From assembly GCF_001429295.1 (NCBI RefSeq), contig NZ_LMJL01000007.1:796835-860834 (forward strand): 64,000 nt of DNA, given 5' to 3'. The notes below the pieces were generated by a model. That model ran no database searches and was not told the DNA's origin. It was given only the letters and a program-made list of their open reading frames with translations. Source of the stretch: Flavobacterium sp. Root935. Lineage in GTDB: Bacteria; Bacteroidota; Bacteroidia; Flavobacteriales; Flavobacteriaceae. Position 1 is the stretch's first letter. Every line of letters starts with the position of its first letter. The position numbers and the translations under genes are program-made. Below, piece by piece: positions 19,339 through 36,812 of the stretch.

Positions 19339-20941
19339 ATCCAGAAGGAATTTTATAAAAGGTGTCGGCGCTTCGTTGCTGCTGATTCCGTTTCTGCAGT
19401 TTTGTTCTGATAAAATTGCGGTACTAATGATTCGTTTATCCGGCACCAAACATTTGCTCGGACATCGTTTGTGGATCAAAGATTTTCCTAAACCAACCAG
19501 ACAAGTTGAGATTCCGTATCTAATTGTCGGAGGAGGTATTTCTGGCTTAAGTGCAGCACGCCAATTTCAAAAAAGAGGAATAACAAATTTTTTAATCGTA
19601 GAATTAGATAATCATTTGGGAGGAAATTCTTCAAACGGAGAAAACAAATATTCCAAATATCCTTTGGGTGCGCATTATCTGCCACTCCCTAATTTTCAAG
19701 ATAAAGAATTGCTTGGTTTTCTCGAAGAAGAAAAAATAATTCTGGGTTACGATCCAAAAGGTTTTCCTGTTTTCGATGAATTACAATTGACTTTTGCACC
19801 AGACGAGCGTTTGTTTTACAAAAATAATTGGCAGGAAGGCGTTGTTCCAAAAGACGGAAACACGGCTTCTGATGATTTGGAGTTTCAGAAATTCTTCAAA
19901 AAAATGGATGTTTTTAGAACAGCAAAAGGAGAAGATCAGAAATACTTATTTGATATTCCGCTTTATCTTTCATCGTCAGATGAAAAGACGAGAGCTTTAG
20001 ATAAAATTACAATGAAGAAATGGTTTAAAGATAATCATTTTACCTCTGAACCTTTATTCAATTATATCGATTACTGCTGTAAAGATGACTTTGGTTTAGG
20101 AATTGAATTTGTTTCGGCTTGGGCAGGGATTCATTATTTTGCAGGAAGAAAACAAGACAGCACAGCCGAAAAACACGACAGCGTTTTAACTTGGCCCGAG
20201 GGAAATTCGCGTCTTGCCAATCATTTAAAAAAGTATACAAACGATAAAGCTTTAAAAAGCCATTTGGTTTATGAAGTAAAAATCGAAAACAACAAAGTAA
20301 TTGCAAAAGCTTTTGATGATGTCAGCAAAACAGCTGTTGAAATCATTGCCAATAAAGTAATAATGGCTTCTCCGCAATTTGTAAATCAATATTTGATCAA
20401 GGACAGAAAAACGTTTACCAAAGATTTTCATTACACGCCTTGGCTTTTAGCAACTTTGGTTGTAGAGGATTTGCCCGATGATTTCAGTTTTCCACTGGCT
20501 TGGGATAATGTAATTTACGGTTCCAAAGGTTTGGGTTATGTTTACGATCAGCATCAGAATTTAAATCAGGTTCAGGAGAAAAAAGTAATTACGTATTACT
20601 TTAGTTTTTCTTCTGCAGATTTAAGAAAAACGAGAAAAGAGCTGTATAAAAAAGACAAAGAATATTGGAAACAGTTTGTTTTGAATGATTTAAAAATTGC
20701 GCATCCTGATATTGAAGAATATACAGAAGACATTGAAGTTTTTCTATTAGGGCACGGCATGATTTCGCCTGCGCCGGGGTTTATTTTTGGAGAATCGAAG
20801 AAACTAGCCAAACAGAATATTCAGAATGCTGTTTATTTTGCACATAGCGATTTATCGGGAATTTCGATTTTTGAAGAAGCTTTTCACCAAGGAATTAATG
20901 TTGTAAATGAGATTTTAGATGGAACAACCGTGGATTCATAA
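19313..20941 (+). CDS. Tat-exported FAD-dependent amine-oxidase-like oxidoreductase, 542 aa
   Basis: The N-terminus carries a twin-arginine signal (KSRRNFIKG, Arg11-Arg12) followed by a hydrophobic stretch and Cys31 (LLIPFLQFC), which could also be a lipobox. An FAD-binding Rossmann motif GGGISGLSAA lies at residues 73-82, with the GG-doublet motif LGGNSSNG shortly after. The length and C-terminal GHGMISPAPGF / HSDLSGISIFEEA region fit the protoporphyrinogen oxidase/polyamine oxidase family. It is likely folded in the cytoplasm with FAD and exported. The start at 19313 lies inside the previous gene (26-nt overlap). The substrate may be a polyamine or aminopropylated product, by inference from its neighbours. 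Confidence 0.8.
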   Translation: MKSGEDCNKSRRNFIKGVGASLLLIPFLQFCSDKIAVLMIRLSGTKHLLGHRLWIKDFPKPTRQVEIPYLIVGGGISGLSAARQFQKRGITNFLIVELDNHLGGNSSNGENKYSKYPLGAHYLPLPNFQDKELLGFLEEEKIILGYDPKGFPVFDELQLTFAPDERLFYKNNWQEGVVPKDGNTASDDLEFQKFFKKMDVFRTAKGEDQKYLFDIPLYLSSSDEKTRALDKITMKKWFKDNHFTSEPLFNYIDYCCKDDFGLGIEFVSAWAGIHYFAGRKQDSTAEKHDSVLTWPEGNSRLANHLKKYTNDKALKSHLVYEVKIENNKVIAKAFDDVSKTAVEIIANKVIMASPQFVNQYLIKDRKTFTKDFHYTPWLLATLVVEDLPDDFSFPLAWDNVIYGSKGLGYVYDQHQNLNQVQEKKVITYYFSFSSADLRKTRKELYKKDKEYWKQFVLNDLKIAHPDIEEYTEDIEVFLLGHGMISPAPGFIFGESKKLAKQNIQNAVYFAHSDLSGISIFEEAFHQGINVVNEILDGTTVDS

Positions 20942-21938
20942 AGCAAAAACAGATTTAGCATTCATTATAGGTCCGTCATTTTTTGTGCTGGCCATAATTT
21001 TTATTTTTCAAGGTTATATTACGAGAATTGAAGAAAATTATTCTTTTTATACTTGGCTTTTTTTAATTGTTTTTATTGATGTAGCACACGTTTATGCAAC
21101 ATTATTCAAAACCTATTTTGTTGCCGATGAATTCAAGAAACAAAAACAAAGATTGATTCTTTTACCGATTATTTGTTTTGTTACAGGAATTGTACTTTTT
21201 TCTCTTGGCAGTTTAATTTTTTGGTCGTTTTTGGCTTATGTTGCTGTCTTTCATTTTATCAGACAGCAGTATGGTTTTATGAGATTGTACGCCAGAAAAG
21301 AAACCAAAACTAAAATATCGGTTTGGATTGATAATCTGGCAATTTATGCTTCAACTGGATATCCAATGTTGTATTGGTTTTTTTCGTCTAAGCGAAAGTT
21401 TAACTGGTTTGTAGAAAATGAATTTTTTAGGTTTGAAAGCCAAACAATCTTAGAAATCCTATTTTGGATTTATATCGGAATTTTGATTTTGTATGTCTTT
21501 TATACTGCCATAAAATCAATTCGAAATCACTTTTTTAATATTCCGAAAAACAGCATTATTCTAGGAACAGCACTTTCTTGGTATTTCGGAATTGTGTATT
21601 TTAATGACGATTTGATTTTTACTTTACTAAATGTCGTTTCGCACGGAATTCCGTATATGGCACTAGTTTATTTTAAGGAAATTGACGGCAAATCAGATTC
21701 AGAATTAGGTCGTCTGTCTTTTTTAAAACAATATAAAGGCATTCTTGTTTACGTTGGTATCTTAGTTTTAATTGCCTTTTCAGAAGAATTTCTTTGGGAA
21801 CTTTTTGTTTGGAATGAAAACATAAACATAACCAATTTTGATTTTTCGAGTTGGCAGATTTTATTAGTTCCGTTGTTGAGTGTTCCGCAGTTTACGCATT
21901 ATCTGCTGGATGGATTTATCTGGAAATCTAAAAAATAA
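20919..21938 (+). CDS. Multipass membrane protein of the polyamine cluster, 339 aa
   Basis: About eight to nine hydrophobic segments are spread along the protein, with a conserved-looking HxxRQQYGFMRLYARK loop near 110-125 and histidines in membrane segments (DVAHVYAT, VVSHGIPYMALVYF, PQFTHYLLDGFIW), which suggests metal or heme ligands. I do not recognise a named family. Its ATG is 23 nt inside the end of the FAD oxidoreductase gene, so it is co-translated with it and is the last gene of the cluster. A role in electron transfer with the exported oxidoreductase is possible but speculative. Confidence 0.65.
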   Translation: MEQPWIHKAKTDLAFIIGPSFFVLAIIFIFQGYITRIEENYSFYTWLFLIVFIDVAHVYATLFKTYFVADEFKKQKQRLILLPIICFVTGIVLFSLGSLIFWSFLAYVAVFHFIRQQYGFMRLYARKETKTKISVWIDNLAIYASTGYPMLYWFFSSKRKFNWFVENEFFRFESQTILEILFWIYIGILILYVFYTAIKSIRNHFFNIPKNSIILGTALSWYFGIVYFNDDLIFTLLNVVSHGIPYMALVYFKEIDGKSDSELGRLSFLKQYKGILVYVGILVLIAFSEEFLWELFVWNENINITNFDFSSWQILLVPLLSVPQFTHYLLDGFIWKSKK

Positions 21939-27634: not shown

Positions 27635-29410
27635 ATGAGGCTGATCATCTCTTTTTTATTTTTATTGATACTTAATACTACTGTGGCTCAACCTAAAAAA
27701 GAGCTTACTGAACAAGAGTATTTAGAATTGCAGGATAAAATTCGTTTCAGCATGAACGGTAATTTTGATGAAGGACTTAAGTATGCTGCTGAATTACAAA
27801 AATCTAGTAATAATGAACATTTAGCTTTTGCTTATGGATCAGGATCTTATTTATATCAACTAAAGAACAATAGAGCTAAGTGTGATGAATGGTATAAAAA
27901 AGCACTAGAATATTATAATAGAATTCCCGAATCTGTTCAAAAAATAAATCTTCGCGCCTACTTATATAATTATAGAGGATTAACGGAATGGAAAAGAAAA
28001 AATTTCAGTAATGCTTTAAGTAATTACCAGGAAGGAATAAAACTTTCTACCAAAACATTGGATGTTATACAGATCGTTAAGTTTAAAAGCAATATAGCTT
28101 TAGTTAATGAAGAAGTAGGGAATTATGAACTTGCTATTAGAAATCTAAGGCAGAATAGTATTTTTTTAGATAAAAATGAAAGTCTATACGAAAAAGATCA
28201 ATTTCAAAATAGTAAAAGTAATATTTATACCAATTTAGGAAATGTCTATGAAGGCTATTTCATGAAAGCTCGAGGTAAATTATTTTTATTAGATTCTGCC
28301 GAATACTTTTATAAAAGAGCAATCAATTATTCGCAAAATTATTTAGACAATAAAATTACTTCTACTCTTAGTTTAGGAAATATTTATCTATACAAAAAAG
28401 ATTTTAAAAATGCAGAAAGAACCTACTTCGATATTTCGATGTATGCTAAGCAAAATAATGATGATTATTATTATAGGATTGCAAATTATAATTTAGGAGA
28501 CCTTTATCATTCATTAAAAAATTATGATAAAGCTTTGGTATTTTTAAAGAAGGTTGATTCTATGTCTGTTAAAGAAAAAAAAACAGATAGAATTTCTTTT
28601 CAGTCCAATTATCTTCAGGCTAAAATTTATAGTGCAAAAAATGAACCCGAATTAGCTTTCAAATATTCTAAAATGTATTTAGATTCTTATGAAAAGTACG
28701 AAGGAGAATTAAGAGAAGAAGCTTTAGAAGTCAATTACAAACTGGGTACGGCGAATCTTAGCGATGAGATGATAAGCATTCAAGAAAAGTATAAGTACGA
28801 GGTTTTATGGAATAAAGCCCTTAAAGTTTTATATGTTATTTTGGTTGTTGGAATTGTGTTTTTCCTAATTAAAAATATTCGCGACAAAAATAAAGCACAG
28901 AAAAAAATGAATGCTTTAATTGAAGAATTTAAAGCTAATCTGGAGAAAAAAGAAATTGAAAAAGCTGAAATCGAAAAAGCAGCTGCAGAACAAAATATAC
29001 TTGTTGAAACTCCAGAACTAGAAGATACATTACTTAAAAAGGAAAATGCAAACCTTAGTATTGATGAAGCTAAAGAAAATAAAATTGTAGAAAAATTATT
29101 GGCACTAGAAGAAAAATTAGAATACCTAAATCCTGATTTTACATTGTCTTATGTTGCCAAAAAAATCAAAACTAATACAACTTATTTGTCTTATGTTGTA
29201 AATAAACGATTTGGTAAATCTTTTGGAGAATATTCTAATGAGTTAAAAATTAATTATGTTATTAATCAAATGATTACAAACCACTTATATCGTAAATATT
29301 CAACACAGGCAATTGCAGAAAGTGTTGGGTTTAAGAATGCGGTTTCATTTGCAAAATCGTTTCGCAAAAGAACTGGAGTATCTCCAGCTCAATTTGCGAA
29401 CAATATTTAA
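27635..29410 (+). CDS. TPR sensor with membrane segment and C-terminal AraC-type HTH, 591 aa
   Basis: Signal peptide (residues 1-18), a periplasmic array of tetratricopeptide-like repeats (about 35-385), one membrane segment (about 395-415, VLYVILVVGIVFFLI), a charged coiled-coil linker (about 418-470, EKKEIEKAEIEKAAAEQ), and a cytoplasmic AraC-like HTH (about 490-591). One-component transmembrane regulators of this design are common in Flavobacteria. It lies directly upstream of, and convergent with, the double-glycine peptide cluster, so it may control that locus or the divergent acyl-CoA dehydrogenase; sequence does not decide. The ligand is unknown. Confidence 0.85.
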   Translation: MRLIISFLFLLILNTTVAQPKKELTEQEYLELQDKIRFSMNGNFDEGLKYAAELQKSSNNEHLAFAYGSGSYLYQLKNNRAKCDEWYKKALEYYNRIPESVQKINLRAYLYNYRGLTEWKRKNFSNALSNYQEGIKLSTKTLDVIQIVKFKSNIALVNEEVGNYELAIRNLRQNSIFLDKNESLYEKDQFQNSKSNIYTNLGNVYEGYFMKARGKLFLLDSAEYFYKRAINYSQNYLDNKITSTLSLGNIYLYKKDFKNAERTYFDISMYAKQNNDDYYYRIANYNLGDLYHSLKNYDKALVFLKKVDSMSVKEKKTDRISFQSNYLQAKIYSAKNEPELAFKYSKMYLDSYEKYEGELREEALEVNYKLGTANLSDEMISIQEKYKYEVLWNKALKVLYVILVVGIVFFLIKNIRDKNKAQKKMNALIEEFKANLEKKEIEKAEIEKAAAEQNILVETPELEDTLLKKENANLSIDEAKENKIVEKLLALEEKLEYLNPDFTLSYVAKKIKTNTTYLSYVVNKRFGKSFGEYSNELKINYVINQMITNHLYRKYSTQAIAESVGFKNAVSFAKSFRKRTGVSPAQFANNI

Positions 29411-29420
29411 AGCTGTACTA

Positions 29421-29567
29421 TTAACCATTTCCGTTTCCTCCAGTACCTTTAGCAGGATTGTTTTTTGGATCAACATCTTCTCCATCACCGCCTCGGATAA
29501 CTTTTTGAGCTTCTTTATTTATTTTTTCTAATTGAAAGTCTTCAAATGTCAATTTTATATTTTTCAT
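29421..29567 (-). CDS. Double-glycine-leader precursor peptide, copy 1, 48 aa
   Basis: MKNIKLTFEDFQLEKINK begins a helical leader that ends in the double-glycine site QKVIRGG (residues 21-27), followed by a 21-residue core DGEDVDPKNNPAK and GTGGNGNG. The leader-plus-GG form is that of peptides cut and exported by C39 peptidase-containing ABC transporters, one of which lies 3.8 kb away. No Cys, Ser/Thr is sparse, and the end is Gly/Asn only. It resembles the TIGR04149-like GG-leader peptide class of Bacteroidota. Copies 2-4 lie directly upstream; the stop-to-stop period to copy 2 is 191 nt. Confidence 0.8.
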   Translation of the reverse strand: MKNIKLTFEDFQLEKINKEAQKVIRGGDGEDVDPKNNPAKGTGGNGNG

Positions 29568-29611
29568 GTCGTATGTTTTTTAATTATTATTTACACTATT
29601 ATAAATGAGGG

Positions 29612-29758
29612 TTAACCATTTCCGTTTCCTCCAGTACCTTTAGCTGGATTGTTCTGCGGATCGACATCTTCTCCATCACCGCCTTTTATAACTTTTTGAG
29701 CTTCTTTATTTATTTTTTCTAATTGAAAATCTTTAATTGCCAATTTTATATTTTTCAT
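29612..29758 (-). CDS. Double-glycine-leader precursor peptide, copy 2, 48 aa
   Basis: Nearly identical to copy 1: leader MKNIKLAIKDFQLEKINK, site QKVIKGG, core DGEDVDPQNNPAK followed by GTGGNGNG. The core differs from copy 1 only by Gln for Lys. The 44-nt spacer to copy 1 is almost the same as the spacer to copy 3 (GTCGTATGTTTTTTAATTAT words), so the unit of gene plus spacer was duplicated in tandem recently. Confidence 0.8.
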   Translation of the reverse strand: MKNIKLAIKDFQLEKINKEAQKVIKGGDGEDVDPQNNPAKGTGGNGNG

Positions 29759-29802
29759 GTCGTATGTTTTTTAATTATTATTTACACTATTATAAATGAG
29801 AG

Positions 29803-29949
29803 TTAACCATTTCCGTTTCCTCCAGTACCTTTAGCTGGATTGTTCTGCGGATCCACATCTTCTCCATCACCGCCTTTTATAACTTTTTGAGCTTCTGTGC
29901 TTATTTTTTCTATTTCAAAATCTTTGATTTTCAGTGAATTATTTTTCAT
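29803..29949 (-). CDS. Double-glycine-leader precursor peptide, copy 3, 48 aa
   Basis: Leader MKNNSLKIKDFEIEKIST, site QKVIKGG, and a core identical to copy 2 (DGEDVDPQNNPAK plus GTGGNGNG). The leader has diverged more than the core, the opposite of many bacteriocin families, which hints that the core is under constraint. Confidence 0.8.
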   Translation of the reverse strand: MKNNSLKIKDFEIEKISTEAQKVIKGGDGEDVDPQNNPAKGTGGNGNG

Positions 29950-30012
29950 GTTTCTTTTTTTTTGGATTGCTTTTTATACTATTTACTATGTATTTTAATT
30001 TTGTAGAAAGAA

Positions 30013-30171
30013 TTAACCATTTCCGTTTCCTCCAGTACCTTTTACAGGATTGTTTGTGTCAGTAGGTGGTGGTGTTTGGCTGTCATTACCTCCGCCTTTA
30101 ATAGCTTGCTGTTGTTGTTTAGAAATTGTTTCTGTTTCAAAATTTTCTAATGTGAATGCTGAATTTTTCAT
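30013..30171 (-). CDS. Double-glycine-leader precursor peptide, copy 4 (divergent), 52 aa
   Basis: The first gene of the minus-strand array. Leader MKNSAFTLENFETETISK, cleavage site QQAIKGG, then GNDSQTPPPTDTNNPVK and the same GTGGNGNG end. The middle of the core is different and proline-rich, while the last 8 residues and the preceding NNP-x-K are kept in all four copies, which marks that C-terminal block as the functional or modified part. Confidence 0.78.
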   Translation of the reverse strand: MKNSAFTLENFETETISKQQQQAIKGGGNDSQTPPPTDTNNPVKGTGGNGNG

Positions 30172-30756
30172 GTCTTTTAATTTTTTTGGATTTAAATTTA
30201 ATACGATTAATCTTTCATAAAATTTTTAAGCAATTTTGTCATATTGCGATGAAAAAGCGCTAAAAATTGGTTTACGTTAAGAATTTTGGGTTGTTATTTT
30301 ACTTAAAAAAAACAATAAAATTGAACTTTATTTATAAGTTAAATCTTGTCAAATTATTTTTAAGCATTGCTTTTTTGGGGGGATTTTTGCTGCGAATTTG
30401 AGGTTGATTTTAGACTTTTTTTGAGTCATTTTAATCTCTTCTATTTTGTTTTTTCTTCTTCAAAACCATTCGATTTTGATACCATGTTTTTCATGTTTTT
30501 CGGTATTTAGATTATTGCTTTTCCAAAACTAGGCAAAAAGTAAAGCCGTTAATCGAAAATAGCCTTTCTGAGCTTTTTATACTAGATAATCAATCATAAT
30601 ATATTGTTTTACAGTAATTTATGTTGTGTACTATACTTGGTATAATTTATAAATTGTATGTGGTATAATTAATAAATTGTATATATGCATGCGATTTTTA
30701 TCAATAAAAACTACAATATTTGCAGTGTAATTATGATTTAAAAACGATCAAAAGCG
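30172..30756. other. 585-nt divergent intergenic region of the peptide locus
   Basis: Very AT-rich region between the minus-strand peptide array and the plus-strand VKOR gene. It contains a G-tract at about 30370-30382 (TTTTTTGGGGGGATTTTT), a pair of direct repeats at 30638-30682, and a near-consensus -7 element AATATTTG at 30715-30722. No coding frame or RNA gene is recognised. Confidence 0.5.
30638..30682. repeat. Two tandem copies of a 23-nt unit upstream of the VKOR gene
   Basis: TGGTATAATTTATAAATTGT and TGGTATAATTAATAAATTGT follow each other without a gap (start points 30638 and 30661). Each unit contains the palindromic AATTTATAAATT or a one-change variant. They sit about 75-120 nt before the start at 30757, where an operator would be expected. 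Confidence 0.6.
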
Positions 30757-32313
30757 ATGTTGAAACTGGTCCAAAAATTTCTACAAATTAATCGATACTC
30801 AGATATAAAAAATGAGTTCAAGGATCTGTTTTTGTCTCATCCCAATTATCCGAGTTTATTTGCGATTACAGATTCATTCGATTTGCTTTCTGTAGAGAAT
30901 GCAGCAGTAAGAGTTTCGAAAGAGCAAATTGTAGATTTACCGTCTAATTTTTTGGCGTATTTTAAAGATGAATTGATATTGGTTGAAAAGACTAAAAGTG
31001 GTGTTCGAATTACGACTAACAAAAAAGGAACTCAAAAGTTATCTTATGATAAATTTCTTTTGGACTGGAATGGAGTAATTGTTGCTATTGAGCCAAATAA
31101 TGTAGTTTCGAGAGATAATTTAAAAGTAGAATATAATTGGTTAAAATATTTTCTGCCTCTTGCCCTTCTTACAGGATTATCTTTTTTCTATAACGGCTTT
31201 GATTTATTTAGTACTATTTTTTTAGTAACATCAATATTGGGTTTAATCGTGAGCATATTTATTGTTCAGGAGAAATGGGGTGTTAAAAACACTGTAATTT
31301 CAAAATTTTGTAATTTAAGTTCTAACTCTTCTTGTCACTCAGTAATTAGTTTTAATGACGATATAGCAAATAGATGGTTGAGTTTTTCAGATTTACCATT
31401 GCTTTTCTTTAGTTCAAGCATTATTGCAATTTTGGTACAGCCATTGAGTTCAGCAGTTTTTGTTGGGTTTTTAAGTCTGTTGGCAATTCCAGTAGTAGTT
31501 TGTTCTATTTGGATTCAGAAATTTGAAATTCAAAAATGGTGTGTTATGTGTTTAGCAGTATCATTTTTAATTGTAGTTCAAAGTGTTTTATGGTTTTCAT
31601 CAGACCTATTTACATTGAGCTTTAGTTTAAGTGCTATTTTTCCTTATGTATTTTCTTTATTGCTTTTAATCCCGATTTGGGCAGCAGTTAAAGTGATGAT
31701 TAGAAAAATGCTCGATAATGAAAGTTCATTAAAAGAACTTAAAAAGTTTAAAAGAAATTATTCTTTATTAAACTTCTTGTCTAAGAAAGTAAAATACACA
31801 AAAGGATTTGAAGATTTAAGAGGGTTGAACTTTGGAAATAAAAATGCAGCCGTAAAGCTTTCTATTATACTAAGCCCAAGCTGCGGACACTGTTATAAAA
31901 CTTTTCAGGAAGCTTTTGATCTAGTATTAAAGTTTCCGGATAAAATATATTTGAACGTTCTTTTTAATATTAATCCAGAAAACAACGACAATCCTTATAA
32001 GGCAGTTGTTGAAAGACTTTTAACTATTAATAGAACAACGCCTGGAAAAACAGTAGAGGCAATTTCTGATTGGTACATTAAGAGAATGGTTCATAAAAAA
32101 TGGCTTAAAAAATGGCCTGTTGAGTCAGTGAGTATGATGATTAGTCAGGAAATTCAAAAACAATATGATTGGTGTTCAATGAATAATTTTAATTACACAC
32201 CAGTTAAAATTGTAAACGAAAGGTTATTTCCAAATGAATATGAGCTGAATGAGTTAAAATACTTCTTGAACGATTTTGTCGATGAAGTTCAAATTTTAGA
32301 AAAAACAGCATAA
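30757..32313 (+). CDS. C39-like / VKOR / thioredoxin fusion, membrane disulfide-forming protein, 518 aa
   Basis: Three parts in order. Residues 1-115 resemble a C39-type peptidase domain (SHPNYPSLFAITDSFDLLS, LPSNFLAYFKDELILVE, then a DWNGVIVAIEP strand) but have no catalytic Cys at the N-terminus, so it should bind rather than cut leaders. Residues 130-310 form a VKOR domain of membrane helices with both cysteine pairs: Cys185/Cys193 in the loop and Cys262-Cys265 (WCVMC). Residues 365-518 form a thioredoxin-like domain with SCGHC (Cys376/Cys379). This is the layout of a self-contained disulfide-bond generator. It lies 58 nt upstream of genes for Cys-rich precursor peptides, and the natural reading is that it oxidises those peptides. 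Confidence 0.85.
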   Translation: MLKLVQKFLQINRYSDIKNEFKDLFLSHPNYPSLFAITDSFDLLSVENAAVRVSKEQIVDLPSNFLAYFKDELILVEKTKSGVRITTNKKGTQKLSYDKFLLDWNGVIVAIEPNNVVSRDNLKVEYNWLKYFLPLALLTGLSFFYNGFDLFSTIFLVTSILGLIVSIFIVQEKWGVKNTVISKFCNLSSNSSCHSVISFNDDIANRWLSFSDLPLLFFSSSIIAILVQPLSSAVFVGFLSLLAIPVVVCSIWIQKFEIQKWCVMCLAVSFLIVVQSVLWFSSDLFTLSFSLSAIFPYVFSLLLLIPIWAAVKVMIRKMLDNESSLKELKKFKRNYSLLNFLSKKVKYTKGFEDLRGLNFGNKNAAVKLSIILSPSCGHCYKTFQEAFDLVLKFPDKIYLNVLFNINPENNDNPYKAVVERLLTINRTTPGKTVEAISDWYIKRMVHKKWLKKWPVESVSMMISQEIQKQYDWCSMNNFNYTPVKIVNERLFPNEYELNELKYFLNDFVDEVQILEKTA

Positions 32314-32371
32314 AATGAAAACAGAATTTAAACTGTTTAAATAGAAATAATAACCCCTAAAACCTGCAGTT

Positions 32372-32554
32372 ATGTTAAAGAATATTTTGAAGTTGAAAGG
32401 TGCAGTAGAATTATCTGCTAATGAGCAAAAAACAATAAACGGAAGTAACGCTCCTATTTGTGATGACGGATTTAAAGCTAAAAGATGTACAGAATTTGGA
32501 ACAGTATCATCATATTGGGATTGTGTGCCAAATAATTATGTCGGAAGCTGTTAA
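32372..32554 (+). CDS. Cys-rich leader-containing precursor peptide A, 60 aa, 4 Cys
   Basis: The leader MLKNILKLKGAVELSANEQK is followed by TINGS where related peptides have a double-glycine site, then a 35-residue core with Cys30, Cys39, Cys51 and Cys60. Four cysteines with a Cys at the very C-terminus suggest two disulfides. The leader closely matches those of the two following peptides, which marks it as one family. The variant Gly-Ser at the expected cut site might be processed after the Ser or less efficiently. Confidence 0.75.
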   Translation: MLKNILKLKGAVELSANEQKTINGSNAPICDDGFKAKRCTEFGTVSSYWDCVPNNYVGSC

Positions 32555-32622
32555 GGAAATTTTTAAGCATCAAGTTTTTTACAGATTTGAGGCTTATACC
32601 CAGAAAACGTAAATAACCAATT

Positions 32623-32757
32623 ATGTTAGAAAAGATTTTAAAAAGTAAAGAAACTAAAAAGCTGACAAAAAAAGAGCAGAAAAACATTTTGGCAGGTGAA
32701 TATGCACTAGAACCAAATTGTAATAATCCTGCTGACGAAAAATATTATGCTTGCTAA
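32623..32757 (+). CDS. Precursor peptide B, 44 aa, 2 Cys
   Basis: Leader MLEKILKSKETKKLTKKEQK, cleavage region NILAGE (Ala-Gly in place of Gly-Gly), and an 18-residue core with Cys33 and Cys44 (the last residue). One disulfide would close a ring of 12 residues. It shares the MLxxILxxKxxxxLxxxEQKxI leader pattern with its neighbours and is too short for most gene finders. Confidence 0.72.
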   Translation: MLEKILKSKETKKLTKKEQKNILAGEYALEPNCNNPADEKYYAC

Positions 32758-32819
32758 TTTGAATATTTAAATAGTAACAGAGACCAAAAACTCTGTTACT
32801 ATTAAAAATGAGATTAAAG

Positions 32820-33011
32820 ATGTTAAAGAAAATTTTAAATCTGAACGGTGCTCAAAGTATTAATAAAAATGAGCAGAAAACCATGAGAGGAGGAATTCCT
32901 GAGTGCTGGATTTATGCCTTAGAAGCTGGATGCATTTTAATTTCATCAGACGAAACTTGTCCTTTAAATACCACATCAGGTATTTGCGATACAAGTCGTC
33001 TTTGTTGTTGA
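32820..33011 (+). CDS. Cys-rich double-glycine precursor peptide C, 63 aa, 6 Cys
   Basis: Leader MLKKILNLNGAQSINKNEQK, canonical site TMRGG (residues 21-25), and a 38-residue core with Cys29, 38, 47, 56, 62 and 63. The cysteines are spaced by 8 residues three times (29-38-47-56) and end in a Cys-Cys pair, a regular pattern suited to three disulfides. An upstream in-frame ATG at 32808 would add MRLK; the Met at 32820 gives the leader length seen in peptides A and B. Confidence 0.75.
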   Translation: MLKKILNLNGAQSINKNEQKTMRGGIPECWIYALEAGCILISSDETCPLNTTSGICDTSRLCC

Positions 33012-33324
33012 TTTTTTTAACTTTTTTAGAAGTAATACGATATAGCCTTATTTAGAATTTAGTCATGTTTTTTTTGAATGTATAGGCGCTCGATCGTGGA
33101 ACATTGAGCAAATTCTCAGTATTGATGATTGGTACTGGGATTCTTAGGAGTTGGCCGCTGTGTTAATTTTAATTGGTTAGGGTAAACCGCGGCCATGTCC
33201 TAAAGAAATTGTGTTACTGGTAATTTTGTTTTTAAATACCCAAACAGAGAAGATTTATATCTTCTCTGTTTTTTTATGGATTAACAAGAATTTTTTTTCT
33301 TAAATTGGCCTTGAATAAATCAAA
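33012..33324. other. 313-nt gap between peptide genes and the ABC exporter, with hairpins
   Basis: No intact gene. The stretch 33085-33215 has higher GC than its surroundings and holds GGCCGC at 33152 and GCGGCC near 33189, complementary arms around a 31-nt centre. A strong terminator follows at 33243. No decayed precursor peptide could be shown. Confidence 0.45.
33243..33276 (+). terminator. Intrinsic terminator between peptide genes and exporter
   Basis: AACAGAGAAGAT and ATCTTCTCTGTT form a perfect 12-bp stem with a TTAT loop, followed by T7. It separates the VKOR/peptide transcript from the exporter genes, so the exporter must either be served by read-through or by a promoter within 33277-33324. 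Confidence 0.85.
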
Positions 33325-35523
33325 TTGAAATTGAAAAAATTCACTCATTACAGACAAGCCGATCATAAAGATTGCGGACCGACATGTTTAAAGATAATAG
33401 CTAAATATTACGGTAAGACAATCAATATTCAGGAGTTGAGAGATTTTAGCGAAACAACTCGTGAAGGAAGTAATTTGCTTTTTTTGAGTGATGCTGCCGA
33501 GAAAATCGGTTTTAGGACTTTAGGGGTTAAATTGTCTGTAAAGAGAATAGAGGAAGCTCCGCTGCCATGTATTCTGCATTGGAATAAAGATCATTACGTT
33601 GTACTTTACAAAATAAAAAAAGGCAAATACTATATATCCGATCCCGCTTTTGGACTTTTAGAATATAACAAAGAAGATTTTGTTAAGTTCTGGATTGGTA
33701 ATAACGCAGGCGACGAGACGAAGGAAGGAATTGCATTACTGATCGAAGCGACACCAAACTTTTTTCAATCTGATTTTGACAAAGAAGAAAATTCCGGTTT
33801 AGGATTTAAATTTCTTTTTAAATATTTATTTCAATACAAATCATTTCTTATACAGCTTGCAATTGGACTTGTAGCCAGCAGTCTGCTGCAGCTTATTTTT
33901 CCATTTTTAACCCAGAGTATAGTCGACGTCGGGATTCAGAATCAGAACATTCATTTTATCTATTTAATTCTTTTTGCAATGCTTTTTATTTTTGCAGGAA
34001 GGACTGGTTTGGAGTTAATTAGAAGCTGGATTTTACTCCATTTATCAACGAGAATCAATATTTCGTTAATTTCAGATTTCTTTATTAAATTAATGAATCT
34101 GCCTATTTCCTATTTTGATGTCCGCATGACAGGAGATATTATGCAGCGAATAAACGATCACCGCCGTATCGAGAGAATACTTACCACATCCTCTCTTAAT
34201 GTGCTGTTTTCTGTAATAAATATGTTTATAATGGGAGCGGTTTTAGCCTATTTCAATCTGCAGATATTCTTAGTTTTCTTTTTAGGAAGCGTACTTTATT
34301 TTGCATGGATAACAATGTTCCTAAAAAGAAGAGAAGTTTTAGATTATAAACGTTTTGCAGAAGTTTCAAACGAACAGAGTAAAGTAATGGAGCTGATAAA
34401 CGGCATGCAGGAAATAAAGCTTCATAATGCCGAAAAACAAAAACGCTGGGGCTGGGAGTATGTGCAGGCAAGACTTTTTAGGGTTTCAATAAAAGGCTTG
34501 GTTTTAGAACAGGCACAAACGATCGGTTCGTCGGTTATCAATGAGCTTAAAAACATTTTTATAATTCTTCTTTCTGCAAAACTTGTAATTGATGGATCCA
34601 TTACATTAGGGATGATGCTCGCGATAAGCGCCATTGTTGGAAATTTAAATGGCCCAATTACTCAGTTAATAGAATTTGTTAGAGAATTGCAGGATGCTAA
34701 AATTTCACTTGCCAGATTATCCGAGATTCATCAAAAAGAAGATGAACTGCAGCAGGAAGTGCACCAGACAACTGAAGTGCCGAATGATGTTGATATTGAG
34801 ATTAAAAATCTTTCGTATCGTTATTTAGGGTCGGATATTCCAGTATTGGATAATTTAAGTTTAATCATCCCGGCCAATAAAGTAACTGCAATTGTGGGTG
34901 TCAGCGGAAGCGGTAAAACAACCCTGATGAAACTGCTTTTGAAATTTTACGAACCCGAAAAAGGAGAGGTTTTAATTGGAAATGCACAGCTTAAAAATAT
35001 ATCTCAAAAAGCCTGGAGGTCAAATATTGGTGCTGTGATGCAGGAAGGCTTTATTTTTAGTGATACAATTGCTAATAATATTGCTTTTGGAGTAGACAGG
35101 ATAGATAAAGAAAGATTAATCTACGCTTCAGATGTGGCAAATATTAAAGAATACATCAGCAGTCTGCCGTTGGGTTTTAATACTAAAATAGGAGCGGAAG
35201 GTATTGGAATGAGCACAGGCCAGAAGCAGCGACTTCTTATTGCCAGAGCTGTTTATAAAAACCCAGAAATACTTTTCTTTGATGAGGCTACTTCTGCATT
35301 AGATGCCAATAATGAGAAAGAAATAATGAAAAAATTAGATATTTTTTTCAAAGATAAAACGGTAATCGTAATTGCGCATCGATTGAGTACTGTTATGAAT
35401 GCAGATCAGATTGTGGTTTTAGATAAAGGAAAAATTATCGAAATCGGAAGTCATTCAGCATTAGTAGAACAGAAGGGAAATTATTTTGAACTGGTTAGAA
35501 ATCAACTGCAATTAGGAAATTAA
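33325..35523 (+). CDS. Peptidase-containing ABC transporter (C39 family bacteriocin exporter), 732 aa
   Basis: The N-terminal C39 peptidase domain (1-140) has Cys17 in KDCGPTC, His90 in KDHYVV and Asp106 in ISDPAFG, so cleavage after a double-glycine leader should work. A transmembrane domain of six helices follows (about 165-470). The nucleotide-binding domain has Walker A GVSGSGKTT (about 525), signature MSTGQKQRL (about 629), and Walker B ILFFDEATSALD (about 650). It would cut and export both peptide families in this locus across the inner membrane. No ATG is available: the frame starts with TTG at 33325 or 33331. It is followed after 2 nt by an HlyD-type adaptor gene. Confidence 0.92.
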   Translation: MKLKKFTHYRQADHKDCGPTCLKIIAKYYGKTINIQELRDFSETTREGSNLLFLSDAAEKIGFRTLGVKLSVKRIEEAPLPCILHWNKDHYVVLYKIKKGKYYISDPAFGLLEYNKEDFVKFWIGNNAGDETKEGIALLIEATPNFFQSDFDKEENSGLGFKFLFKYLFQYKSFLIQLAIGLVASSLLQLIFPFLTQSIVDVGIQNQNIHFIYLILFAMLFIFAGRTGLELIRSWILLHLSTRINISLISDFFIKLMNLPISYFDVRMTGDIMQRINDHRRIERILTTSSLNVLFSVINMFIMGAVLAYFNLQIFLVFFLGSVLYFAWITMFLKRREVLDYKRFAEVSNEQSKVMELINGMQEIKLHNAEKQKRWGWEYVQARLFRVSIKGLVLEQAQTIGSSVINELKNIFIILLSAKLVIDGSITLGMMLAISAIVGNLNGPITQLIEFVRELQDAKISLARLSEIHQKEDELQQEVHQTTEVPNDVDIEIKNLSYRYLGSDIPVLDNLSLIIPANKVTAIVGVSGSGKTTLMKLLLKFYEPEKGEVLIGNAQLKNISQKAWRSNIGAVMQEGFIFSDTIANNIAFGVDRIDKERLIYASDVANIKEYISSLPLGFNTKIGAEGIGMSTGQKQRLLIARAVYKNPEILFFDEATSALDANNEKEIMKKLDIFFKDKTVIVIAHRLSTVMNADQIVVLDKGKIIEIGSHSALVEQKGNYFELVRNQLQLGN

Positions 35524-35525
35524 TC

Positions 35526-36812
35526 ATGGCTGAAGATACATTTGAATTAAGAAGCGAAGAAGTTCAGGATATCCTGACCAAAGTACCGCATTGGATGATC
35601 CGATGGGGAACAGTGCTGATATTTGCCATAATTGTAATGCTGTTTTTTGTTTCCTGGTTTGTCAAATATCCAGATGTTGTGCATACCGAAATCGTAATTA
35701 CCACTAATATTCCTCCTGAGAGAATTGTTTCGAAATCTTCTGGTCGTATTGAGGCAATTTTGGTAAAAAACAAAACTTTGGTTCCTAAAAACAGCACACT
35801 AGCCATCATTGAAAATACCGCTGACTACAAGGATGTTTTTTTATTAAAAAGCATTATAGATAGCTATGATATTAATGCTAAAAAAGCATTTCCGTTTGCG
35901 ATGCTGAAAAATAAACAGCTAGGTGAAATAGAAAGTGCCTTTGCTGTTTTTCAGAAAGATTATCAGGCTCAGGAATTAAACGAAAACCTGCATCCTTTTG
36001 AAATTGAAAGCAGGGCGCAGAGCTCAGAGAAAATCCAGATCAAAGAAAGGCTGGATATTCTCCAGCAGCAAAAGGTAATTAATGAAAGTGAACTGGAACT
36101 GCAGAAAAATGAAATAGCGCGTTTTGAAGTTTTATTCAATAAAGGAATTATTTCTGCTCAGGAAATGGAATTGAAGAAACTGGGTTATCTTCAGGCAATG
36201 AAGAGTTATAAAAGCCTTTTAACCTCGATTTCCCAATTAAGGTCCTCTTTGATCGACAATACAAAATCGAGCCAAAATTCGCACATAAACAGCACAAAAG
36301 AGGAGGTTAATCTTGGAAGAAGTATGGCGCAGTCATTTTATCAGCTGAAAAAAGTGATAAAAGACTGGGAACTGGCTTATACATTAAAATCTTCTGTAAG
36401 CGGGGTTGTTACTTTTCTGCAGGTTTGGAACGAAAATCAGACTATAAATGTGGGGGATAATGTTTTCTCTATAATTCCAGATGCTAAAAACAGTTTTGTT
36501 GGAAAAGTAAAAGCTCCTGCTCTGAATTCAGGAAAAATAAAAGTAGGGCAGAGAGTCAATATCCGGCTGGCCAATTATCCTGATAGAGAGTTTGGTGTAT
36601 TGAAAGGTGAAATCAAAAATATTTCGTTAGTGCCCGATAAAGATGGAAACTTATTGCTGGACGTCGCACTTCCAAACGGCTTAAAAACATCCTATAATAA
36701 ACAAATTATTTTCCAGCAGGAAATGAAAGGAACTGCCGAAATTGTGACAGAAGATTTACGATTAATTGAAAGAATCTTGTATCAATTTAAAAGTATATTT
36801 GAACAAGTTTAG
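35526..36812 (+). CDS. HlyD family secretion periplasmic adaptor, 428 aa
   Basis: Membrane fusion protein that would bridge the ABC exporter to an outer-membrane channel. One N-terminal membrane segment at about residues 22-45 (WMIRWGTVLIFAIIVMLFFV), a lipoyl/barrel-sandwich half (IVSKSSGRIEAILVKNKTLVPKNSTLAIIENT), a long coiled-coil hairpin (about 115-270), and the return half (LKSSVSGVVTFLQVWNENQTINVGDNVFSIIP) are in the proper order. The start is 2 nt after the exporter stop. No TolC-like gene is in the window. Its stop overlaps the stop of a convergent methyltransferase gene by 4 nt. Confidence 0.9.
   Translation: MAEDTFELRSEEVQDILTKVPHWMIRWGTVLIFAIIVMLFFVSWFVKYPDVVHTEIVITTNIPPERIVSKSSGRIEAILVKNKTLVPKNSTLAIIENTADYKDVFLLKSIIDSYDINAKKAFPFAMLKNKQLGEIESAFAVFQKDYQAQELNENLHPFEIESRAQSSEKIQIKERLDILQQQKVINESELELQKNEIARFEVLFNKGIISAQEMELKKLGYLQAMKSYKSLLTSISQLRSSLIDNTKSSQNSHINSTKEEVNLGRSMAQSFYQLKKVIKDWELAYTLKSSVSGVVTFLQVWNENQTINVGDNVFSIIPDAKNSFVGKVKAPALNSGKIKVGQRVNIRLANYPDREFGVLKGEIKNISLVPDKDGNLLLDVALPNGLKTSYNKQIIFQQEMKGTAEIVTEDLRLIERILYQFKSIFEQV

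Follow-up and report, generated by a model that had tools for sequence, protein, structure and literature searches.

A putative peptide-pheromone module with a TPR-AraC regulator at a Cys-rich peptide export locus of Flavobacterium

Why does a single bacterial export locus encode two different families of small peptides, one without cysteine and one rich in it? The question is raised by a locus in a 64,000-nt stretch (the window, whose positions serve as coordinates throughout) of the 5.08 Mb genome of Flavobacterium sp. Root935, where a first-pass annotation had placed four Cys-free peptides with double-glycine (GG) leaders, three Cys-rich peptides, a VKOR/thioredoxin membrane protein, a C39 peptidase-containing ABC exporter and an HlyD protein between 29421 and 36812. 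The seven precursors and the three larger proteins all lie where they had been placed, and our confidence that this compound peptide locus is real is very high. The range takes in every gene that was named but stops short of a TPR-AraC regulator immediately upstream (27635-29410), and three elements inside it had been overlooked: a direct repeat (30640-30685), a structured RNA (33079-33205) and a hairpin (about 33243-33276).

Our answer draws on gene content, co-occurrence, the conserved repeat, allelic sensor types, co-variation between peptide cores and sensor, and RNA structure, all of which were computed. We consider it quite probable that the TPR-AraC protein has these Cys-free peptides for ligands, and likely, if less firmly so, that the peptides are the inducing pheromones of the Cys-rich operon, which would make this a pheromone-controlled bacteriocin locus. 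With more reserve again, we lean towards extracellular peptide quorum sensing of a new class in the Gram-negative Bacteroidota: GG-leader pheromones, encoded in several copies and with tails specific to the species, would be read by a one-component TPR-AraC receptor that spans the membrane and comes in exchangeable pherotypes, and disulfide-bonded bacteriocins would be controlled through a dedicated tandem-repeat operator and a locus-specific structured RNA.

Cys-free peptides and the TPR-AraC regulator

The four Cys-free genes lie on the minus strand (29421-29567, the proposed pheromone precursor taken as copy 1; 29612-29758; 29803-29949; and 30013-30171) and encode peptides of 48 to 52 residues that all have KGTGGNGNG as their C-terminus. 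Identity to the first copy is 90, 77 and 54% for the other three, and the promoter-proximal copy (30013-30171) has the most diverged leader and an unchanged tail. The family was matched in 35 of the 199 genomes of our genus set (own genome included; E ≤ 0.001), and 226 copies were read across 80 named loci, these being the best 80 of 124 relatives found through the TPR-AraC protein alone, in partial overlap with the 199 genomes (all titled Flavobacterium, except three 'Flavobacteriaceae bacterium' and one '[Flexibacter] sp.'). Recurrence in the genus, together with the selection on the tail described below, led us to reject chance open reading frames (ORFs) as an explanation.

The regulator gene (27635-29410, plus strand; Pfam TPR and HTH_18/HTH_AraC above cut-off) encodes 591 residues with a signal-like N-terminus, a transmembrane (TM) stretch at about 394-414 by hydropathy, and a helix-turn-helix (HTH) domain at 508-589. 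An AlphaFold2 model (mean predicted local distance difference test score [pLDDT] 82.8) consists of a TPR solenoid (residues 26 to 372, approximately), a long helix across the TM stretch and the HTH domain, and the sensor is predicted to be periplasmic, held by one TM helix. Two or three tandem TPR-AraC frames precede one Cys-free gene in L048, L049, L054, L073, L195, L196 and L198; the inner copy has the more diverged sensor in L048, L054 and L073, and the frames of L049 are partial and overlapping.

Within the genus set the VKOR protein was found in 61 genomes (E ≤ 1e-10) and the exporter in 73 (E ≤ 1e-100), and we examined 80 stretches, comprising the VKOR places and some additional exporter places. 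From the 85 VKOR units found, three with too short upstream DNA were left out of the co-occurrence count; among the remaining 82, TPR-AraC and Cys-free genes occur together in 45, TPR-AraC alone in three, the peptides alone in none and neither in 34 (the Fisher test on these counts ignores phylogeny). A divergent Cys-free GG peptide is visible by eye in two of the three TPR-AraC-only units. L034, L048, L070, L071, L076 and L078 each have one VKOR unit that carries both genes and another that carries neither. The usual order of TPR-AraC loci is acyl-CoA dehydrogenase, TPR-AraC, Cys-free genes (minus strand), VKOR, Cys-rich genes, exporter, HlyD and methyltransferase, with exceptions that have genes inserted before the exporter (for example, L034 and L060) or another left flank (for example, L067 and L070). 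Cys-free peptides, VKOR and the direct repeat (at least 34 of 46 matches) are found together in 75 of the 75 named loci with more than 4 kb downstream; four of the five loci dropped for shorter flanks still have the Cys-free peptides.

Beyond the genus, a VKOR relative is present in 29 of 298 other genomes of a family draw (E ≤ 1e-30), in which the Cys-free profile gave only three matches (E 2.7e-4 to 7.3e-4). We examined, by pattern and by eye, 20 of the 38 VKOR places in this draw, all of them in other genera: each has at least one Cys-rich GG-type peptide, and none has a readable Cys-free family peptide or a TPR-AraC match near the VKOR gene. The disulfide-peptide machine is thus the more widespread, and the TPR-AraC and Cys-free module looks like an addition in Flavobacterium. 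The earlier view of the Cys-free peptides as a second product set sits badly with their tie to TPR-AraC and their absence from 34 VKOR units and 20 other-genus loci; since they are inseparable from TPR-AraC at VKOR units and their cores co-vary with its sensor, they fit a signal with its receptor. The refutation that had been proposed, namely relatives that keep the exporter and lack the precursors, is unsuited to the two families jointly, because they behave differently.

Allelic sensors and the peptides that track them

Two lines of evidence bear on the peptides as ligands, the first being the peptides themselves. The 229 Cys-free cores have a median length of 20 residues, a mean grand average of hydropathy (GRAVY) of -1.38, and a composition dominated by Gly (24%), Pro (14%), Asp (12%) and Asn (12%), with nearly no aromatic residues; 223 are without Cys, and 212 contain a proline, K or R within three residues of it and two later glycines. 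We compared nine-residue tails anchored at the P-K/R-Gly motif in 218 peptides, dropping 11 without the anchor, and give the unfiltered run (an earlier run was biased, because it kept only pairs with at least six of nine tail residues alike). Over the 291 within-locus pairs the tails are more alike in amino acids (0.91) than in nucleotides (0.86), and the 24-residue leaders of the same pairs show the reverse (0.76 for amino acids, 0.83 for nucleotides). Tails are identical in 184 of the 291 within-locus pairs, of which 164 have silent base differences, compared with 7 of 3,081 between-locus pairs; between loci, tail residues are alike at 0.45 and leader residues at 0.54. The amino acid excess in the tail, its reversal in the leader and the silent differences thus indicate that the encoded tail is under selection. 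Redundant copies that share one hydrophilic tail would fit a signal better than a membrane-active toxin.

The promoter-proximal copy often extends beyond the GNG tail (L044, L046, L149, L150 and others), and the proposed signal stretch would be internal in such copies, so that extra trimming would be needed. Lasso, darobactin, radical SAM-modified and grasp-with-spasm precursors were rejected as identities of the peptides, all matches being below cut-off. On TIGR04149 and NF047798 (leader_Chryseo), the window peptides reach at most 13.7 bits (cut-off 25) and 7.2 bits (cut-off 23.5), and those of the relatives at most 16.6 and 17.9 bits, again below the curated cut-offs.

The second line is the sensor. 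Among close relatives (VKOR identity above 0.85, 74 pairs) mean identity is 0.74 for the sensor, 0.96 for the HTH domain and 0.91 for VKOR, and the 11 closest genomes divide into sensor type A (window, L037, L038, L040 and L042) and type B (L033 to L036, L039 and L041), although the VKOR genes of L040 and L042 are nearest those of B genomes. Between the types, the mean synonymous divergence (dS) of the sensor is 2.19, a lower bound because saturated pairs are omitted, and its nonsynonymous divergence (dN) is 0.231, compared with dS and dN of 0.68 and 0.009 for the dehydrogenase, 0.99 and 0.013 for the HTH domain, and 1.03 and 0.043 for VKOR. The sensors are therefore old allelic types that cross-cut the VKOR tree, a pattern familiar from streptococcal and staphylococcal pheromone-receptor pairs.

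The peptide cores track this sensor, not VKOR. In partial Mantel tests, core and sensor distances are correlated given VKOR and HTH (r = 0.28, p = 0.0002) over 29 of the 45 units (VKOR identity above 0.74 only; L049, with its truncated TPR-AraC frame, left out), and over 71 units, from which near-duplicates and loci without core or VKOR had been removed, r is 0.36 (p = 0.0005, the floor of the test). The correlation of core with VKOR given sensor is 0.10 (p = 0.10) over the 29 units and -0.002 over the 71. Core and sensor remain correlated when third positions of HTH and of the start of VKOR serve as controls (0.32) and when the sensor's own third positions do (0.25).

A proposed circuit and its rivals

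A site through which such a receptor might act is found between the divergent Cys-free and VKOR operons. In an alignment of 21 of the 45 intergenic regions, a tandem direct repeat with a 23-bp period (30640-30685, plus strand) is nearly invariant, and a second conserved block on the minus strand (about 30514-30562) contains TAGTTTTG (30524-30531), a candidate promoter of the Cys-free genes that we take to fit the Bacteroidota -7 element TAnnTTTG. Scored against a 46-base consensus of the repeat, the 48 TPR-AraC units have a median of 40 matches (36 of them score 33 to 46), and the 36 units without TPR-AraC a median of 24 and a maximum of 27 (one of the 85 units was omitted from scoring). The consensus was derived from loci of the same group as those scored, and we chose the limits (33 or 34 of 46) by eye, but the contrast with units that have no TPR-AraC depends on neither. 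The Root935 genome has six sites with at most two mismatches, and the repeat at 30640-30685 is the only adjacent pair. Because AraC proteins typically bind such repeats, we take it that the tandem repeat is most likely the TPR-AraC binding site, positioned for both divergent operons. The gap between the two operons is 569 to 589 bases in the window (30172-30756) and its ten closest relatives (L033 to L042) and mostly 201 to 284 elsewhere, the extra bases lying between the promoter-like block and the first Cys-free start.

In the circuit that we infer, the C39 exporter and HlyD would cleave Cys-free precursors after GG and export them, and the signal would be the hydrophilic core of about 20 residues, perhaps shortened to the stretch P-x-[K/R]-G-x-G-x-G at its C-terminus. 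It would be bound in the periplasm by the TPR superhelix of the regulator, a protein with one TM helix, and the AraC domain would then act at the tandem repeat and raise both divergent operons. The signal would thereby reinforce its own production, and VKOR and the Cys-rich peptides would be induced; the exporter would be induced through read-through past the structured RNA and terminator. The VKOR/thioredoxin protein would oxidise the Cys-rich peptides, perhaps recruited through its inactive C39-like domain, which would bind the same leader, and they would be released as disulfide-bonded bacteriocins.

Other explanations share much of this evidence. Closest to the first-pass annotation, and in our judgement unlikely, is the proposal that a second secreted effector is what the Cys-free genes encode, while the TPR-AraC protein senses something else and regulates both divergent operons; the common export leader pattern, several copies per locus and a shared promoter region bearing the repeat would all agree with it. 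An effector of this kind sits less easily with cores so short, so hydrophilic and so poor in Cys and aromatic residues, with tails that are constant within a locus and varied between loci, or with the lack of Cys-free peptides at all 34 VKOR units without TPR-AraC, and it leaves unexplained why core similarity should track the sensor. Co-occurrence and co-variation would suit any sensor ligand, including one that holds the regulator off; the peptides would then be kin-recognition tags, with strangers or the loss of kin triggering the bacteriocin operon. Allelic types among close relatives fit kin recognition, yet positive feedback is the better fit for multi-copy precursor genes whose promoter region bears the repeat and is shared with the target operon, and we find the tag proposal a shade more doubtful than the effector. 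The opposite strands of the two families might suggest two unlinked peptide systems that are neighbours by chance, which we find hardly credible given an arrangement kept in 75 of 75 loci, a common leader pattern, a promoter region that both operons share and that bears the repeat, and a genome with a single full C39 protein.

The pheromone reading, whose signalling step rests on sequence and computed evidence, has its own difficulties. An exported signal must get back into the periplasm. The repeat scores below 33 in 12 of the 48 TPR-AraC units (24 to 28 in seven of them), and elsewhere in these loci the highest score is 25 to 34, save in two loci with a true second site, so that the few scores of 28 to 34 in distant units are doubtful. 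The third TPR-AraC-only unit, L086, has a distant TPR-AraC match and no Cys-free peptide, and G102 has a weak Cys-free match (E 9.7e-4) on a contig that differs from that of its VKOR genes. Given sensor, core shows a weak positive correlation with third positions of the HTH (r = 0.15, p = 0.0075); because sensor, HTH domain and peptides are encoded side by side, part of the co-variation could come from their being inherited together in a single recombination tract. Finally, the best fold matches of the TPR domain are the APPBP2 degron receptor (Z 28.8) and LGN (Z 24.8), which score as high as or above Rap proteins (best Z 24.3 over 314 residues, root mean square deviation [rmsd] 4.3) and NprR-NprX (Z 22.5 over 276 residues, rmsd 3.5). 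TPR superhelices are common and bind peptides of varied kinds, and the fold comparison indicates only that the fold would suit a peptide-receptor role.

Probable disulfide-peptide machinery, structured RNA and described systems

The proposed target of the circuit begins with the VKOR/thioredoxin gene (30757-32313, plus strand; Pfam), whose 518-residue product scores 33.3 bits for VKOR and 22.8 bits for Peptidase_C39, with Thioredoxin_4 below cut-off. By sequence it has the marks of the VKOR family (a VKOR domain, a CxxC and a further Cys pair), and C185, C193, C262xxC265 and C376xxC379 are invariant in 39 homologues. The N-terminal C39-like match spans positions 46 to 132 of the 133-position profile and contains no Cys (the first is C185); because the predicted structure is poor (mean pLDDT 61.3, residues 1 to 52 below 50), this domain is assigned by Pfam, and perhaps it recruits leaders. 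On the same strand follow Cys-rich peptides 1 (32372-32554, four Cys), 2 (32623-32757, two Cys) and 3 (32823-33011, six Cys), the first two with GG-type leaders and the third with a GG leader. A disulfide role for this set had been proposed from the outset, and it gains support from the number of Cys, which is 2, 4 or 6 in 207 of 215 plus-strand Cys-rich matches at the named loci (two have none and six an odd number); the set is probably disulfide-bonded by the VKOR/thioredoxin protein, and the products are likely to be disulfide-bonded bacteriocins.

Both families appear to leave by one route, the C39 exporter (33325-35523, plus strand; TTG start in the ORF list), which has Pfam C39, ABC_membrane and ABC_tran domains above cut-off in one chain, as expected of a peptidase-containing ABC transporter, and is followed by an HlyD-type periplasmic adaptor (35526-36812, plus strand; Pfam HlyD_3 above cut-off). 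The two leaders had been called different, and this is true of their N-terminal halves; positions -12 to -1 share one pattern, approximately L-S-K-x-[E/Q]-Q-K-x-[I/V]-x-G-G, which in a loose form occurs in 148 of the 223 Cys-free leaders and 153 of the 187 Cys-rich ones (three Cys-free and 28 Cys-rich peptides in which no cleavage site was recognised are omitted; the leader models were built from loci of the same group as those scored, with a limit of 14 bits set by eye). Substrates of a single C39 peptidase would be expected to have such a half in common, and the exporter is the only full-length Peptidase_C39 match in the genome, the VKOR protein being a further partial one. Export of both families by this one exporter, as first suggested, is thus supported by sequence.

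Between the peptide genes and the exporter, a structured RNA element of 127 nt (33079-33205, plus strand) is followed by a terminator-like hairpin with a T run (33243-33276, plus strand). The fold z-score is -5.76 over 33070-33280, and blastn matched this region in 76 of the 80 named loci (L177 has the hairpin only and L179 two short pieces). In a 31-row alignment, 98.8% of cells pair and two-sided changes occur at 12 of 42 pairs (seven in the element, five in the hairpin), compared with a mean of 4.9 in shuffled controls, none of 500 of which reach 12, and at most three with slid partners. A model of the element, which by construction matches its own source loci, was matched in 33 of the 199 genus genomes, 32 strongly and one marginally, with one marginal second match. 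The 32 strong matches each follow the VKOR gene of this locus at a distance of no more than about 1.5 kb, and all 32 genomes are among the 35 that are Cys-free-positive (G004, G013 and G173 are without the element). Comparison with Rfam gave no family at gathering and none credible at E ≤ 5, so a known RNA family was rejected, as was a repeated element at 33040-33300, for which the own genome holds only the region itself and its own hairpin. The simplest reading is an attenuator ahead of the exporter, with a 3' small RNA as the alternative. A second same-strand match occurs in L150, L181, L189 and L192.

How does this arrangement compare with described systems? Peptide quorum sensing is a textbook Gram-positive trait, and Dirix et al. 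(2004) reportedly proposed GG-leader signals in Gram-negatives from an in-silico screen for double-glycine peptides. A narrow search of open-access literature returned no experimentally described GG-leader pheromone system in Bacteroidota and, in agreement with the first-pass annotation, no description of the present combination. The RRNPP receptors (Rap-Phr, NprR-NprX and Rgg) use a TPR superhelix as a peptide-pheromone receptor, the role proposed here for the TPR-AraC protein, whose model aligns with Rap and NprR at Z 22 to 24. RRNPP proteins are cytoplasmic, read imported peptides and have an Xre-type HTH or phosphatase output, unlike the TPR-AraC protein with its signal-like N-terminus, TM stretch and AraC-type HTH; because of this predicted topology and HTH type we place it outside RRNPP. 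A survey of Bacteroidales ribosomally synthesized and post-translationally modified peptides mentions, in its available part, TPR genes in two clusters and suggests in passing that the TPR proteins might bind pheromones (PMC10352776); those clusters are of other types, and that part of the survey gives neither a receptor-peptide pairing nor an operator.

The GSP/gallocin system of Streptococcus gallolyticus (BlpAB, BlpHR) is a pheromone-induced class II bacteriocin system with, as here in 75 of 75 named loci, a GG-leader peptide gene that is distinct from the bacteriocin and lies beside its operon. According to the accessible parts of the reports, one ABC transporter exports its GG-leader signal and GG-leader bacteriocin (PMC8545107), and gallocin needs disulfides (PMC10100652). 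That system is Gram-positive and uses a histidine kinase and response regulator, whereas the present one is Gram-negative and has a single-TM TPR-AraC protein, VKOR, HlyD and multi-copy putative signal genes; the genes scanned from 25.4 to 40 kb include neither a kinase nor a response regulator, and the TPR-AraC protein stands instead. The proposed circuit would operate much as in this type, but because the receptor is not a kinase pair, we do not file the locus under it.

Within the phylum, the bacteroidetocins (class IIf) are described, in the part of the paper available, as a GG-leader peptide with four Cys, a thiol oxidoreductase and an exporter with a peptidase domain (PMC6671954). They share with this locus the phylum, a GG-leader peptide with four Cys, a thiol oxidoreductase (here the VKOR protein, a candidate counterpart) and a peptidase-containing exporter. 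The bacteroidetocin core of 42 residues with four Cys follows a 15-residue GG leader, whereas the cores here would be 35, 19 and 37 residues after 25-residue leaders if cleaved after GS, AG and GG; the five-TM accessory protein has no counterpart beside the Cys-rich genes by hydropathy; and, unlike bacteroidetocins, the locus has several Cys-rich genes, a regulator and Cys-free peptides. Neither AraC nor a transcriptional regulator is mentioned by those words in the bacteroidetocin paper (PMC6671954). The locus is not a bacteroidetocin locus.

If the pheromone reading is true, Bacteroidota gain a compact signal-receptor pair and a new receptor architecture, in which a signal is read on the outer side of the inner membrane and needs neither import nor a kinase; the timing of disulfide-bonded peptide production in flavobacteria would be explained, as chemical signalling before fighting, which would be new for these bacteria. 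The natural allelic types make sensor-core specificity directly testable, and the RNA element offers a lead of its own that is easy to test.

Around the locus, the genes scanned between 25.4 and 40 kb encode a DUF3050 protein, acyl-CoA dehydrogenase, a small methyltransferase, a 23S-IVP protein, RimM, ribosomal protein S16 and DUF6252, and by sequence the flanking genes are housekeeping or of no assigned function. No maturase is among the genes of this interval, in line with the earlier statement that no modification enzyme is present, and by hydropathy its only multi-TM frames of at least 90 amino acids are VKOR, the exporter, the regulator and the soluble-type methyltransferase. A plasmid-borne locus was ruled out, megablast being without a match among plasmids.

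Some minor observations concern the Cys-rich genes of relatives. L062 to L065 each have an array of 8 to 19 different Cys-rich genes, like a bacteriocin stock under shuffling. A pseudoknot-like motif, about GAC..CTTCA..GTC..TTAAAATGAT..TGAAG, the anchor of which does not occur in the window, lies some 20 to 60 bases before Cys-rich genes in L062 to L065, L069, L077, L078 and others. Its anchor, chosen irrespective of pairing, is present at 49 of 198 Cys-rich genes; the first stem pairs in 27 of the 49, not above dealt-out partners (mean 22.6, maximum 31), and the second pairs in 35, compared with a mean of 13.4 and a maximum of 20. About 9 kb from the locus, the window also has a 339-residue frame with seven TM-like stretches (20919-21938).

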